From the NCBI GenBank assembly GCA_028284945.1, contig JANQQJ010000023.1, positions 62,001-126,000 of the forward strand: a DNA stretch of 64,000 nt. Reading direction: 5' to 3'. The DNA comes from Alphaproteobacteria bacterium. Its GTDB lineage: Bacteria; Pseudomonadota; Alphaproteobacteria; SMXS01. The notes under the pieces are model-generated. The model was not told the origin of the DNA. It worked only from the letters and a program-made list of their open reading frames with translations, and did no database searches. Position numbers and translations under genes: made by a program. This document shows, piece by piece, positions 15,259 to 48,327 of the stretch. How positions within the stretch are numbered: the first letter of the stretch is position 1; each line of letters opens with the position of its first letter.

Positions 15259-16698
15259 CTACTCTTTGACAACCAGGTGGTCCGCGGCCTCAAGCATCAG
15301 ATCGATATCCATTACCGGCGGTTTCCCCTCGAACCGGCAGGTTGCAACGACGTGACGCATCATAAACGCCGGGTGGAACCGGGCCAGGACCATATTGTTC
15401 TTGGCATAGAAGTCCTGCAAAAGTCGTTCGAGGACCAGCGGGTCGAATTCCACGCCGTTCTCTTCACAAACCTTCATGAAAATCTGTCCATATTCTTCGA
15501 TATGGGGCGAACTGATCCGGAACTTGTATGGAATTCGCCGCAGCATGGCGTCATCCATCAACTTGCTGGGGGGCTTGTTGGTCGAAAAAATGATCAGACC
15601 ATCGAACGGAACCGTGAAGGTCTTGCCGGTTGGTAGGGTCAGATAGTCTACCCGTCGCTCCAGCGGAAAAATCCAGCGATTGAGGATATCCTCCACCCGG
15701 ACAGCCTGACGGCCTAGATCGTCGATCAAAAACACGCCGCCCAGTGCCTTCAGCTGCATGGGCGCCTCACTGAAGCGCAGATTGGCATCGTGCGATACGT
15801 CAAGCATATCCAGCGTCAGTTCACCGCCCGTGATCGCCACCGGCCGTTGACACCGAACCCATCTGGGATCCTCATCCGAGCGCCGCAGCCGACTGCTTGA
15901 AACCGGTTTGTCATTCGCCGCCGGCGCACCCACTACGGTATGAATCGTGCGGTCATAGATGTTGATGATATGCCCGCTGACATAAACCGCATGGGGCACA
16001 TAGACATATTGCTCGAAACTACGGGTGATACCGACTGCGAGGGTTGTCTTACCGTTGCCCGGCGCGCCATAGAGCAGCATGGCGCGGCCCGAATTCACCG
16101 AAGGCCCCAACTGATTGAGCAAATCGTCATCCAAAACCAGGTGGCTGAGCGACCGTTGCAATCTTTCGTGGTCAACCCGGTCGTTGACGATCCGCTGCCG
16201 AAGAATTTGATCCCGGTAGTTTTCCAGCGTAACCGGCGCTGGACCGGCATATTGCGATCGCGAAAGCGCTCGGTTTGCCGCTTCCCGGCCAATGTCGCTG
16301 AGTCCATAGCGAATGTCTGTGATCAGGGTTGACCCCTCTGAGGAGCCCAAAGCCTCGATAAGCCGTCTCTCGCGGGCAATTTCGACGAGCTCTTCGACAA
16401 CGCCGAAGGGCAGCTTGATTTCATCACAAATCGCTGATTTGGACTCATGGCCGTAAACGAACATGATCTTGACCAGCAAATCGAGCAGGAACGCCGTTTC
16501 GAGCCCCGTGTCCTGCAACCTCGTGATCGGTGGCACGGCATAGCTGAAAAAGGTGTCGAGCTGATCGGTGGTTATCGCGCCCACGGCAAGCAAGCACTCG
16601 CCCAAGGGCAGCCCGGACTGGTCCTGTTCTTCAAGAGCCGCGTTCAGGCCTTCCTGGCTGATCAGGCCCGCGTCAATTAACTCGTTACCAAGTGCCAC
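15259..16698 (-). CDS. AAA ATPase with GspE-N (MSHEN)-like N-terminal domain
   Basis: 479 residues from the GTG at 16698 (AGGAGG six bases upstream; another GTG lies directly against the SD). Residues ~1–50 resemble the GspE/PilB N-terminal domain (LGNELIDAGLISQEGLNAAL, then PLGECLLAVGAITTDQL). Residues ~70–170 form a helical/winged-helix linker ending SQYAGPAPVTLENYRDQI. The AAA module follows: Walker A GAPGNGKTT (211–219), Walker B VFLIDDLG, and sensor IIFSTN. The family is widespread in alphaproteobacteria, planctomycetes and myxobacteria without a firm role. It diverges from the repeat-protein operon at 16851 across a 152 bp promoter region. Confidence 0.8.
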   Translation of the reverse strand: MALGNELIDAGLISQEGLNAALEEQDQSGLPLGECLLAVGAITTDQLDTFFSYAVPPITRLQDTGLETAFLLDLLVKIMFVYGHESKSAICDEIKLPFGVVEELVEIARERRLIEALGSSEGSTLITDIRYGLSDIGREAANRALSRSQYAGPAPVTLENYRDQILRQRIVNDRVDHERLQRSLSHLVLDDDLLNQLGPSVNSGRAMLLYGAPGNGKTTLAVGITRSFEQYVYVPHAVYVSGHIINIYDRTIHTVVGAPAANDKPVSSSRLRRSDEDPRWVRCQRPVAITGGELTLDMLDVSHDANLRFSEAPMQLKALGGVFLIDDLGRQAVRVEDILNRWIFPLERRVDYLTLPTGKTFTVPFDGLIIFSTNKPPSKLMDDAMLRRIPYKFRISSPHIEEYGQIFMKVCEENGVEFDPLVLERLLQDFYAKNNMVLARFHPAFMMRHVVATCRFEGKPPVMDIDLMLEAADHLVVKE

Positions 16699-16850
16699 CG
16701 GCACCCTCCTTCGTTGGACGGTTCCAGCTCCCTTTGATGGCGCATAGTGGCACACACCACAACAACATAGGAACCCTGCGTGAACAGCAGTTGCCAATCA
16801 GCGACGAAAACAATACTTTCCCATCAGAAGTTCATTGAATGAGGTTAGCC

Positions 16851-17099
16851 ATGACCAAAAAGCTTATTGCAACGCAACCGATCTCATCTGATCGCAAGGG
16901 TGTCCGCCTGAGCGCAGGGTCGTCGACGGCGACAAAAAGTGGTGGTTACGGCGACGCATATGGCTATGGCGATGCCTATGGTACAGCCGAAAACTATAGC
17001 GGCGCCTACGGTTATGGCGATGCGTATGGTTACGGCGACGCATATGGGTACGGGTACGGCGACGCCTATGGCTATGGCGATACCCCGACAAAAACCTAG
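16851..17099 (+). CDS. GYGDAY-repeat protein, 82 aa
   Basis: A basic 31-residue N-terminus (MTKKLIATQPISSDRKGVRL, then SAGSSTATKSG) is followed by ~46 residues of GYGDAY repeats and a short TPTKT tail. Five full GYGDAY units, one GYGD, one extra GY and one diverged insert (GTAENYSGAY) are present. There is no signal peptide and no cysteine. ATG 16851 is preferred to 16839 because GAGGTT lies before it. The leader-plus-repetitive-core layout recalls precursors of modified peptides or a Tyr/Gly-rich structural protein. The gene is 8 bp upstream of the unknown 243-aa protein and divergent from an AAA ATPase. Function unknown. Confidence 0.7.
   Translation: MTKKLIATQPISSDRKGVRLSAGSSTATKSGGYGDAYGYGDAYGTAENYSGAYGYGDAYGYGDAYGYGYGDAYGYGDTPTKT
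16944..17081 (+). repeat. In-frame GYGDAY-coding repeat tract
   Basis: An 18-bp unit encoding GYGDAY repeated with different synonymous codons (GGTTACGGCGACGCATAT, GGCTATGGCGATGCCTAT, GGTTATGGCGATGCGTAT). Two copies are identical in DNA (from 16944 and from 17028 approximately). The codon variation shows that the protein sequence, not the DNA, is being kept. Confidence 0.85.
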
Positions 17100-17107
17100 C
17101 AACACCA

Positions 17108-17839
17108 ATGGCACCGGCGCCGGACAAGTCTCCGGTCAAGATCGGCTGGTTAGTCGATACACCTAAGGCCGGTTTTCTCTATTCAGCCCCCCGCCCCGTC
17201 AAAGCGCAGCGGATCGTGCCCCTCTCGGCACGGGCCGTGCAATCCTGCCCGGCAGTCAACGAGATCGAGCGGCGCCTGTTCGAAGTAACCTTCCCGTTTG
17301 ACCTGCGCTTGCGCTACGAGCGCGATGGCGACGAGCACCATCTCTATTCTGTTCCGGAAGGGACCCGTATTGACGACGATCTGGTGCCCCAGCACGTCTT
17401 CTTAATGAAGCCGGATCATTGGCGGGATCCAGCGCGTCCAGTCATCCAAATCCGCGCGCCCTATGTTTTCGTCGCTGATGAGCGTGTCTATCTCAATCAA
17501 CTACCGCCATTTCTGAGCCGGTCGTTTGCGCGCTGGCCGGGGACAATGACCGCGGGCCGATTTCCCACCGACATTTGGCCGCGGATTTTGTCATGGGGGT
17601 TTGAATGGGAAGATATTGATCGGGATTTGGTCTTTCGGCGCGGCGACCCATGGTTTTATCTGCAGTTTGAGACTGAACACCCAGACCAGCGGATCGATTT
17701 GGTACCGGCTGAAAATACCGCGGAACTGCAGACCTATCGCCAAGGGTTGGCCGACGTCGTGAAATATACATCAAATACATTCGCACTCTTCGATACGGCA
17801 ACAGCGCGCCGGCCAAAGAAACTGCTTCAAGAACGCTGA
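17108..17839 (+). CDS. Unknown protein linked to the GYGDAY-repeat protein, 243 aa
   Basis: Begins 8 bp after the repeat-protein stop, so the two are co-transcribed. It is soluble, without a signal peptide, and very rich in Trp, Phe, Pro and Arg. Notable stretches are IERRLFEVTFPFDLRLRYER, VIQIRAPYVFVADERVYLNQ, RFPTDIWPRILSWGFEWEDI and FRRGDPWFYLQFET. The order 'small aromatic motifs, then W..F, then (K/R)GxPxxYLxF' vaguely recalls DUF6065-type proteins, but I cannot establish homology. No cofactor motif (radical SAM, kinase, ATP-grasp, P450) is visible. It could be a modifying enzyme, chaperone or partner of the repeat protein. Confidence 0.65.
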   Translation: MAPAPDKSPVKIGWLVDTPKAGFLYSAPRPVKAQRIVPLSARAVQSCPAVNEIERRLFEVTFPFDLRLRYERDGDEHHLYSVPEGTRIDDDLVPQHVFLMKPDHWRDPARPVIQIRAPYVFVADERVYLNQLPPFLSRSFARWPGTMTAGRFPTDIWPRILSWGFEWEDIDRDLVFRRGDPWFYLQFETEHPDQRIDLVPAENTAELQTYRQGLADVVKYTSNTFALFDTATARRPKKLLQER

Positions 17840-18033: not shown

Positions 18034-20175
18034 ATGACAAGTGGCACGGGTCTCGAAGGCATTAGCAGCGTAGCGGCCATCTTATGGGCCGCTGTCGCTT
18101 GCGTTTCGCTCTACGTCATGGTTCCCACACGACCTGCCCGCACCGTGCTGGGCTGTGTTTCGGCATTTTTGATCGGCGTGGCGCTGATCTTGCAGCTCGG
18201 GATGTTTGGGGAACCGGCGATAATCGGCACGGGCACCTTTAATTCCCACACATTCGTCCTGCTCGGCGCATTACCTCTGTTATTGGCTGTATTACTCGGC
18301 GCGCGCTATCGTCAGGACCGTGCGATTCAGGATCAGGCCCTCGCCCGCACTGACGGCGCTGTCGCGGTGTTTGATGTTAAGGGAAAGCTGCAATACGTGA
18401 ACGCCGCCTTCCTTCGCCTTGTTGGATTATCTGATGCGAGGGAAGCGCTTGGGCGTCAGGCACAGGACTTTTTTTCAAATCGCGAAGACGCGGATCTCGC
18501 CCTCGACGCTGTTCTGACAGCCGGCAACTGGCACGGTGAAGTCGCGACTGTCACGCCAGACGGAACACAAAAAGAGGCAGAGATCGGCATGTCGCTGGCC
18601 CGTGATTCAGAGGGAACACCCACTGCAATCATTGGCTCCTTTGCTGATGTCGGCGAACGAAAGCTTGCTGTCCAAGAACTTAAACTCAATCAAACCCTTC
18701 TTACCGCCGTAGGCGAGGTTGCGCCCGTCGTTCTCTGGTCAGCCGACGATCAGGACAGGATTCAGTTTTCCACCGGTATTGGGCTTGATGCGTGGCAGAC
18801 CGACGGGCCCGGCGATGAAAGCAACGGCCCCTTCGCCATCGGAACAACGCTGGCCGACCTCTTCGCGGACAATCAAGATGCCACAATAAGTTTAGAGCGG
18901 GCCAAAGGCGGGCATTCCTCTCGATTTGCCCACACATTGTTTCAAGTGCCGGTTCAAACGAACATCGGCCCGCAGGTAAATTCATCGGGACGCGTTATCG
19001 GCGTCGTTGGGGTAAGCCTCGTTGAGGCGCCGGCATCTCCAGCCATTGAACAAGACGAAAGCGTCGATACAACCGATCTGAGGGATCAGCAGCTACAGAT
19101 TGTGGGCCGGCTTACCGACGGTATCGCGCACGACTTCAATAACCTCTTAACCACTATGCTGGGCAATCTGGACATGGTTGTTGAGCAAACCAGCAAGGAA
19201 TCGGACCTACACCAGTTTGCCAGTGCGGCCGCTCGCGCCGCAGAACGCGGCGCCGAACTGACACAACGGCTTATCGACTTCGCAAAGCGCCTACCGCCTG
19301 AGCCATCGGATACGGACATCAATGACCTACTTATCGGCATGCAGGCGCTGCTGAAACCGGCTCTACCACCCTTTGTATCGCTGAATATCCGCCCTGCGGT
19401 CGATCCTATTTCTGCCAATGTGGATGCCATGCAGCTCGAAGCGGCCATCATAAGTATCGCACTCGATGCCGGCGACGTTGTACCGCGTGGCGGCAAAATT
19501 GAGATTTCAGTCTCTGAAAACGGGCCCGATCAGCGCGGTTCGGCTGATCGTCACGAAAACGGTGCGTCCAATGCGGTCATCGCGATCACCATATCCAACA
19601 CTGTCGGTGAACAAACCGCAGTAGCCGACCACAGCCCCCATTCATATCCACGAGATAATTTTGCACTGGTGCGCCGTTTCGTCGAAGAGTCGAATGGTTC
19701 AATACATGTAACGTGTGAACCTGGCCAGAATGCCTCGGTTACGCTGGTCCTGCCTCGCGCCGCGTCACATCAAGAACCCGCCCAAAACTGTGATCCCGCC
19801 AAGCGCCGCATTATGGTTGTCGAGGATGACCCGGACGTGCGGGATTTCGTCGTCAATGCATTGACCCGCATGGGATACAGCGTCATCTGGGCCGCCGATG
19901 GCCACGAAGCCCTGAACGTTGCAGAAGACAATGAAACCATAGACATGTTGATCTCGGACGTTGTCCTGCCCGGCGAAATGACCGGTCCTGATGTCGTCGA
20001 CCGGCTTCTTCACCGCTTCCCGGATACAAAGGTCCTTTTCACCTCCGGATATCTGGGCGACGACCTGAAGATTCACGGGCGGTTCGAAGAAGACGCCGAA
20101 TTGCTCAGCAAGCCTTATACGATCCAGGCGCTGTCAGATAAGGTCAAGCAGGCGCTGGAACCGACAATCCATTAA
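18034..20175 (+). CDS. Hybrid histidine kinase with degenerate ATPase domain
   Basis: 713 residues. There are three or so N-terminal transmembrane helices (to ~residue 100), a PAS domain (~110–210, [20 protein letters not shown]), a second PAS-like region, a HisKA dimerisation helix with phospho-acceptor His366 ([11 protein letters not shown]), and a C-terminal receiver with Asp642 (LISDVVLPG). The catalytic ATP-binding part is eroded. The N-box NxxxNARDAM-type motif reads [14 protein letters not shown], the DxGxG box reads ISNTVGE, and no GTGLGL G2 box is present. It may therefore be a pseudokinase or act by phosphotransfer with a partner kinase. A 194 bp AT-rich region upstream carries no gene. 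The 3' end overlaps ivd by 4 bases. Confidence 0.85.
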
Positions 20176-47789: not shown

Positions 47790-47903
47790 TTTCCCCCGCC
47801 ACCACAAGGTGTGGTGAGGCAGTGTAACCGAGTCGCCTTGGAGTTCGCCAGAGGCTTTGCGGCTTCTCTTTCAAATAGTCCCGCGAATGCCTATATTGGG
47901 GAC

Positions 47904-48201
47904 GTCGGGTAACCGACTATAGCGATAAACGGCCTATGGAATAGGCGTTGCGGACCCGGGGGCGGTACCCGGCGCCTCCACCACAAGCCAGCGGCACACG
48001 GGGGCAACCTTGCGGCTGGTTTCTGATGGGGGCGAAATAGGATCGACGCGCGTAATAAAGATAGTCTTTTCGCTCGGCATGGTACCACCGATATCGGGCC
48101 ATTCTTAGAGATGCCAATGATAATGAGGCACTCGCTGTAGCAGCCTAATAGGCTGATGCTAGCGCGGTTTCGGCGGGGCACCGGGCAACAGAAGCCCCGC
48201 C
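47904..48201 (+). ncRNA. ssrA: Two-piece (permuted) tmRNA gene
   Basis: The acceptor piece comes first and ends CGGCGCCTCCACCA at 47983. After a ~44-base intervening segment the coding piece begins at about 48028 with GGGGGCGAAATAGGATCGAC, whose first seven bases pair with the acceptor 3' strand. The tag frame is GCC AAT GAT AAT GAG GCA CTC GCT GTA GCA GCC TAA (48113–48148), giving ANDNEALAVAA. A -10-like TATATT lies at 47892–47897. The outer limits are approximate. It rescues stalled ribosomes; tagged proteins would be fed to ClpXP by the SspB encoded at 52649. Confidence 0.95.
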
Positions 48202-48207
48202 ACTTTA
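48172..48207 (+). terminator. Terminator at the 3' end of ssrA
   Basis: A 7-bp GC stem GGCGGGG/CCCCGCC with a 16-base loop, followed by ACTTTATCGTTT. It may double as the 3' structural helix of the tmRNA coding piece. Confidence 0.6.
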
Positions 48208-48327
48208 TCGTTTCGAAATAAATGAGATCCTGCCTGGCCCACGGGGTGGCCTTGCAGCTGTATTCACTTGTCGTCGGCTCGATTCTCCGTGAATATGCGG
48301 CGCTTTGTAGCTCTTGGGGGAAAGTTT

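Follow-up and report, generated by a model that had tools for sequence, protein, structure and literature searches.

A tyrosine/glycine-rich tandem-repeat gene and a partner gene of predicted dUTPase-like fold are paired in an alphaproteobacterium and in SAR11

We analysed a 64,000-nt stretch of DNA (the window) from an alphaproteobacterium (assembly GCA_028284945.1, contig JANQQJ010000023.1, positions 62,001 to 126,000), and in it a pair of adjacent genes, P0002 and P0003, that encode a short GYGDAY tandem-repeat protein and a 243-aa protein (Table 1). An earlier reading, made from the sequence alone (the sequence-only reading), had singled out these genes and a divergent ATPase as a candidate three-gene system. 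The two small genes are arranged as it described, with an 82-aa, basic-leader repeat protein encoded 8 bp before the 243-aa protein. P0002 starts at an ATG (16851) that is preceded by a GAGG ribosome-binding-like site. The ATG of P0003 has no obvious Shine-Dalgarno site, which makes it likely that its translation is coupled to that of P0002.

Table 1. Features at the P0002-P0003 locus, with positions in the window.
Feature	Position	Strand	Basis or remark
P0002, GYGDAY tandem-repeat protein, 82 aa	16851..17099	+	translation; first gene of the pair
GYGDAY tract inside P0002	16944..17081	+	units start at residues 32, 38, 54, 60, 68; partial unit to 77
P0003, 243 aa, unnamed family, predicted dUTPase-like (beta-clip) fold	17108..17839	+	second gene of the pair
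Divergent intergenic region, ATPase to P0002, 152 bp	16699..16850	.	gene starts
MshEN (c-di-GMP-type) + AAA ATPase, 479 aa	15259..16698	-	NF053729 match; not part of the module
PAS hybrid histidine kinase	18034..20175	+	Pfam PAS/HisKA/Response_reg; not part of the module

In the P0002 product, the first 30 aa or so form a basic, hydrophilic leader, and five exact GYGDAY units and partial units come after it. All 27 pairwise differences among the five units fall on codon position 3, and positions 1 and 2 carry none. Because a non-coding repeat would not confine its differences in this way, we take the pattern as direct evidence, at the level of the sequence, for translation of the reading frame and for selection on its protein. 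The sequence-only reading had staked its proposal on the translation of this frame, and the codon pattern bears it out. P0002 alone reaches 10% Tyr and 12% Gly among the 395 open reading frames (ORFs) in the window that are 50 aa or longer, and all five occurrences of the pattern GGNTAYGGNGAYGCNTAYGG in the source genome lie in the P0002 locus. An AlphaFold2 model of the single sequence is disordered (predicted local distance difference test score, pLDDT, of 48.7). The product has no hydrophobic segment and hence no signal peptide; the absence of the latter had been noted before. A search for GYGDAY repeats elsewhere, which had been suggested as a check, gave no second locus: in a DNA search of 385 alphaproteobacterial genomes the hexapeptide does not recur as a repeat, and its sole other match is a single-copy chance occurrence (G159, locus L220). 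In viral contigs, GYGDAY is present in 61 stretches, mostly as one copy in an ordinary ORF, together with some low-complexity GYGDG ORFs.

P0003 matches no model of Pfam, NCBIfam or PADLOC, in agreement with its earlier description as a protein of no known family, and a sequence search of the Protein Data Bank (PDB) gave nothing convincing. The P0003 sequence alone matched nothing in the genome collection; with the family alignment as the query, relatives were found in at least 362 stretches, including ones from Rhodobacterales, Rhodospirillales, Sphingomonadales, Pirellulaceae and SAR11. Relatives are present in 14 of 385 sampled alphaproteobacterial genomes, one is located on a Paracoccus aminophilus plasmid, and remote ones occur in viral contigs and in Synechococcus phages. 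When 64 relatives were compared to Pfam, no family matched more than three of them, and all of these scores were weak. DUF6065, a seemingly similar family, was rejected because it matched none of the 64 members. A link to ClpB in Rhodobacterales (33 of 80 loci) was likewise set aside as regional synteny, its distance varying widely. Across 64 bacterial and phage sequences, residues C47, P63, G150, W157 and R159 are invariant and E166 is conserved in at least 90%.

We found that P0003 relatives in SAR11 are accompanied by a repeat gene of their own. The best relative in the genome collection (51% identity) lies in a Pelagibacteraceae single-cell genome (G917, locus L062), directly downstream of a gene whose 117-aa product has a signal peptide and a body rich in Tyr, Gly, Ser and Asn. 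Four further genomes of the same genus carry a homologue (G412, L291; G525, L292; G421, L293; G633, L294), and homologues are present in 5 of 397 SAR11-order genomes. All five loci have one gene order: the gene for an exported Tyr/Gly-rich repeat protein of 117-121 aa comes first, the P0003 homologue follows after 0-12 bp, and a gene for a protein of about 100 aa comes last. Out of 82 genes called in these loci, exactly five reach 10% Tyr and 12% Gly, each of them immediately upstream of the P0003 homologue, compared to none of the 8168 ORFs in other P0003-family loci. The third small gene (91-112 aa; L062:8716-9054 in the single-cell genome) belongs to no Pfam family, and is strongly diverged between loci.

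The SAR11 repeats vary in sequence. L292 and L293 have units of 14 residues, YSYGNSxYGNDGxS and YSLGNSxYGNDGxS respectively, and every unit reads YSYGNS in the first (L292:4490-4855) and YSLGNS in the second (L293:3972-4337). Since the Y-to-L change is present in every unit, the two repeats show concerted evolution. The units of L294 are of the STYGNTTYGSDGSTW type. Codon differences between repeat units are 33 synonymous and 9 nonsynonymous in L292, 17 and 8 in L293, and 28 and 16 in L294, and they too speak for selection on the protein. GYGDAY is one version within this class of tandem repeats rich in Tyr and Gly. In the viral collection, a contig codes for a further small protein, apparently exported, with YRQYGNTTYGSDGSS repeats (L298:9180-9548); these are of the same type as in the L294 protein, and the stretch examined has no P0003 homologue. 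Compared to small exported proteins of this YGNTTYGSDG type, P0002 has a shorter repeat, a hexapeptide, and no signal peptide. Separately, an Aestuariispira locus (L033) contains a short tandem-repeat ORF that reads KSNFKAKSNFKA on one strand and LALKFDLALKFD on the other, about 4 kb upstream of its P0003 homologue.

A maximum-likelihood tree of 81 P0003-family sequences places P0003 as the sister of the L292 and L293 homologues (support 97/87), within a clade that includes L062 and L291 (100/99). Because P0003 is nested in the SAR11 clade, the window pair is related by descent, through gene 2, to the pairs of SAR11, as judged from this tree. The L294 homologue lies far from the clade, so its pairing is either much older or independent. 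The tree puts the homologues of L046 and L048 close to the SAR11 clade, at weak support; both stretches end at a contig edge just upstream of the homologue, and no further copies were found in the families of these two genomes. P0003 is absent from the other nine genomes of the source family. This patchy distribution (1 of 10 genomes in the source family, 5 of 397 in the SAR11 order) speaks for spread of the pair by transfer. Patchiness is also consistent with a toxin-antitoxin, immunity or phage-related module, and P0003 has distant phage homologues. However, PADLOC matched neither P0002 nor P0003, no Tyr/Gly repeat gene was seen beside the phage homologues, and the SAR11 repeat protein carries a signal peptide; we give such a module only a slight chance. 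The neighbours of the phage homologues are mixed and have no common theme.

The structure of P0003 was predicted by AlphaFold2 from the family alignment. The model is confident (pLDDT 93.2; predicted template-modelling score, pTM, 0.89), and the structure prediction of the 243-aa protein alone that the earlier reading had called for points to a dUTPase-like fold. Every one of the 50 PDB entries that VIA-align listed is a dUTPase, with the best match (3ecy) at Z 8.5 and 2.6 Å over 110 residues (P0003 residues 7-193), while nearly all Foldseek matches shown are dUTPases or dCTP deaminases. In a viral library, the best structural matches are uncharacterised phage proteins (E 1e-14; template-modelling score, TM, 0.7). 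The predicted fold of P0003 thus appears similar to that of the dUTPase/dCTP deaminase superfamily (beta-clip).

These matches raise the question of whether P0003 is a nucleotide-binding or nucleotide-hydrolysing relative of these enzymes, beside which the repeat gene is incidental; the homologue of phage S-SM2 lies near genes for thymidylate synthase, phoH and exonuclease. Several comparisons point the other way. The dUTPase family PF00692 does not match P0003, and no dUTPase match was obtained for 63 relatives. The dUTPase motifs PRSG, GTIDxDY and GFGSTG are present in the 12 dUTPases compared but absent from P0003, which also differs from dUTPase by extra C-terminal helices and longer loops. 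An hhalign comparison of the P0003 profile with 12 alphaproteobacterial dUTPases was not significant (probability <1%). The source genome has a separate dUTPase (G000:C35:234304-234693), and 12 of 12 genomes tested have a separate PF00692 gene. When the register is set by eye, the P0003 segments IQIRAPY...WPGTMTAGRFP...DLVFRRGDPWFYLQFE would fall in line with QIRPRSG...APGTIDADYRG...FxIxRGDRIAQ of dUTPases, which would put a non-acidic P0003 residue at the catalytic Asp of GTID. The pairing is difficult to reconcile with a nucleotide enzyme whose neighbour is there by chance, as the repeat gene is common to five of five SAR11 loci and the window, and we consider such an enzyme improbable.

A second type of repeat protein adjoins the family at large. 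Of the 177 flank bands that reach up to 1.5 kb from a family gene, 12 contain the start or end of an RTX (GGxGxD) ORF, compared to 6 of 565 bands at 1.5-7.5 kb (Fisher p=1.2e-4, which is indicative because the loci are related to differing degrees). The adjacency is seen in both orientations and on several branches of the tree (L037 and L118; L038-L040; L075; L077; L136). L071 carries, in series on one strand, an RTX-like gene, an ABC transporter gene, a HlyD-type gene and the P0003 homologue. On account of the enrichment and of this series, genes of the P0003 family tend, over the family as a whole, to lie beside those of exported Gly-rich repeat proteins. In addition, truncated extra copies of P0003-family sequence lie next to RTX sequence, or are fused to it in frame, at L044, L045 and L047 (G285, G371), which suggests recombination at RTX loci. 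RTX proteins and type I secretion have dedicated cytosolic partners, for example the HlyC-type activators. The pair resembles these systems in that a repeat protein has a cytosolic partner gene alongside, and in several lineages P0003 homologues adjoin RTX and type I secretion genes. The pair differs from them in that a Pfam scan of P0002 gave no RTX match (PF00353) and its repeat is made of GYGDAY hexapeptides, not GGxGxDxUx nonapeptides, while P0003 matches no acyltransferase family of Pfam.

The main rival explanation is a new peptide-modification system, in which gene 2 would encode an enzyme acting on Tyr, Asp/Asn or Gly residues of the repeat; the repeat protein would then be the precursor, with the basic N-terminus of P0002 serving as leader. 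A small precursor gene directly upstream of a partner gene fits this arrangement, as does the leader-like N-terminus without a signal peptide, and the conservation of Cys47, Arg159 and Glu166 across bacteria and phages is such that they could be catalytic. The SAR11 repeat proteins, however, have ordinary signal peptides, not the leaders of ribosomally synthesized and post-translationally modified peptides (RiPPs). Moreover, no protease, transporter or cofactor-binding motif is found beside the pair, the fold search retrieved no modification enzyme, and the family also adjoins large RTX genes. The sequence-only reading had remarked that no known RiPP enzyme is visible, and the nearest neighbours are indeed a short-chain dehydrogenase/reductase, the AAA ATPase and the histidine kinase, with P0003 itself unmatched. 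Its modified-peptide and metal/redox proposals both ended without positive evidence. We consider a modification enzyme unlikely.

The most likely start of the divergent ATPase is GTG 16698, which is preceded by AAGGAGG, and with this start the 152 bp that had been reported between it and P0002 is correct. Its AAA part is as previously read, while its front domain, then called GspE-N-like, is more precisely an MshEN domain that binds cyclic di-GMP (c-di-GMP; NCBIfam NF053729, 49.2 bits against a cut-off of 38, E=3e-13), with PDB matches to PilF, PilB and MshE. The remainder is an AAA P-loop domain with no T2SSE match; Pfam lists AAA-type and other P-loop families, none above its cut-off. The front domain is of the same type as in MshE and PilB, whereas the catalytic part is AAA and not a GspE/PilB secretion ATPase. 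The anti-phage ATPase IetA was rejected as an identity, since only the P-loop segment matches (29 bits against a cut-off of 510; PADLOC, 32 bits over 52 residues).

Orthologues of the ATPase (48-63% identity) are present in 8 of the 10 source-family genomes, the source included. In G001, G002, G004, G005 and G006, a divergent PAS histidine kinase is the direct neighbour of the ATPase, at a distance of about 240-300 bp. The kinase beside the ATPase is about 40% identical to the 18034 kinase in G001 and G003, and a more distant relative in the others. In the window, the gap between ATPase and kinase is 1335 bp and is occupied by P0002 and P0003. Because the ATPase-kinase neighbourhood is kept in relatives, and P0003 is missing from them, the pair is best seen as an insert into this intergenic site. 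On the same comparison, the histidine kinase at 18034 is the ancestral divergent neighbour of the ATPase, and the ATPase is not part of the P0002-P0003 unit. In G003 the corresponding gap measures about 2.2 kb and contains an ORF of 613 aa that matches ATP-grasp (L050:4989-6830); with the pair at this place in the window and the ATP-grasp ORF in G003, this may be a site where different cargo inserts.

These neighbourhoods bear on whether the three genes form one system, in which an ATPase regulated by c-di-GMP would power assembly or export. Such a system would be consistent with the divergent promoter region shared in the source genome and with the c-di-GMP-type domain, but the ATPase is kept next to a histidine kinase in relatives that lack the pair, lies beside the pair in none of the SAR11 loci, and borders another insert in G003. 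We regard a three-gene system as very unlikely, since the three genes do not co-occur elsewhere, an outcome that the sequence-only reading had named as refuting its proposal. Thus, of the system first proposed, the pairing of the repeat gene and the 243-aa gene is upheld by the five SAR11 loci, and the ATPase drops out as a third component. In its own right, the main ATPase copy is usually divergent from a PAS kinase, which looks like an undescribed pairing of a c-di-GMP-type AAA ATPase and a histidine kinase; a second MshEN-AAA ATPase (43% identity) is encoded in the source genome at G000:C35:282396-283817 (L013/L058), and four other family genomes carry two. Elsewhere in the window, positions 47889-48239 contain a permuted tmRNA gene with the tag ANDNEALAVAA.

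We propose, with a probability of about 0.5, that P0002 and P0003 are a transferable two-gene module of a repeat protein and a cytosolic accessory protein, a chaperone or maturation factor, of dUTPase-like fold. Gene 1 would give a small, apparently disordered Tyr/Gly-rich tandem-repeat protein, which in SAR11 would be exported via its signal peptide, presumably to an extracellular or surface destination. Gene 2 would give a cytosolic, dUTPase-like (beta-clip) protein without dUTPase motifs, acting as the dedicated accessory factor of the repeat protein. P0003 would physically interact with the repeat protein and either keep it competent or mature it before export or assembly. Outside the clade of SAR11 and P0003, the same family apparently serves RTX repeat proteins together with the type I secretion genes belonging to them. 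Among the options that the sequence-only reading had listed, a structural or exported repeat protein fits the SAR11 signal peptides best, although the export signal itself is not in P0002.

Several observations weigh against this two-gene module. The best 11-residue hydropathy in P0002 is 0.29, compared to 1.75-2.48 in the SAR11 repeat proteins, and without a signal peptide the P0002 product may remain intracellular here or exit by another route. The P0002 repeat cannot be aligned with the SAR11 repeats, and the link between them consists of composition, position and partner phylogeny. The third gene of the SAR11 loci was not found by similarity in the window or the source genome, the SAR11 versions themselves diverging beyond detection. 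The fold match of P0003 is just above background by its Z of 8.5, and the best Foldseek E-value in the PDB is 1e-3. The Tyr and Gly thresholds were chosen after the pattern had been seen, although the contrast between the SAR11 loci and the other loci is independent of fine-tuned thresholds. Lastly, most family members, in Rhodobacterales and elsewhere, have no adjacent repeat gene, and the partner may therefore have a wider task than serving a repeat protein.

Beyond the pair, we tentatively suggest that a dUTPase-fold protein stripped of its nucleotide chemistry may be a dedicated chaperone or modifying factor for repeat proteins rich in Gly, Tyr and Asp (of the Tyr/Gly type in SAR11 and the window, of the RTX type elsewhere), that it may have spread between SAR11 and other alphaproteobacteria, and that it has relatives in cyanophages. 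We found no description of the pair or of the P0003 family in the open-access literature. The earlier placing of the pair outside the standard categories holds, in that no known system matches either the pair or the P0003 family. With caution, the P0002-P0003 system appears to be new in kind, its function being one that we infer.

SAR11 are among the most abundant cells of the ocean and have very small genomes. In such cells, an exported tandem Tyr/Gly protein that is kept together with its own partner gene is unexpected. The pairing offers a direct, testable handle on a large protein family, which extends over at least 362 stretches and into phages. If the proposal is true, a nucleotide-enzyme fold would have been recruited to serve repeat proteins.

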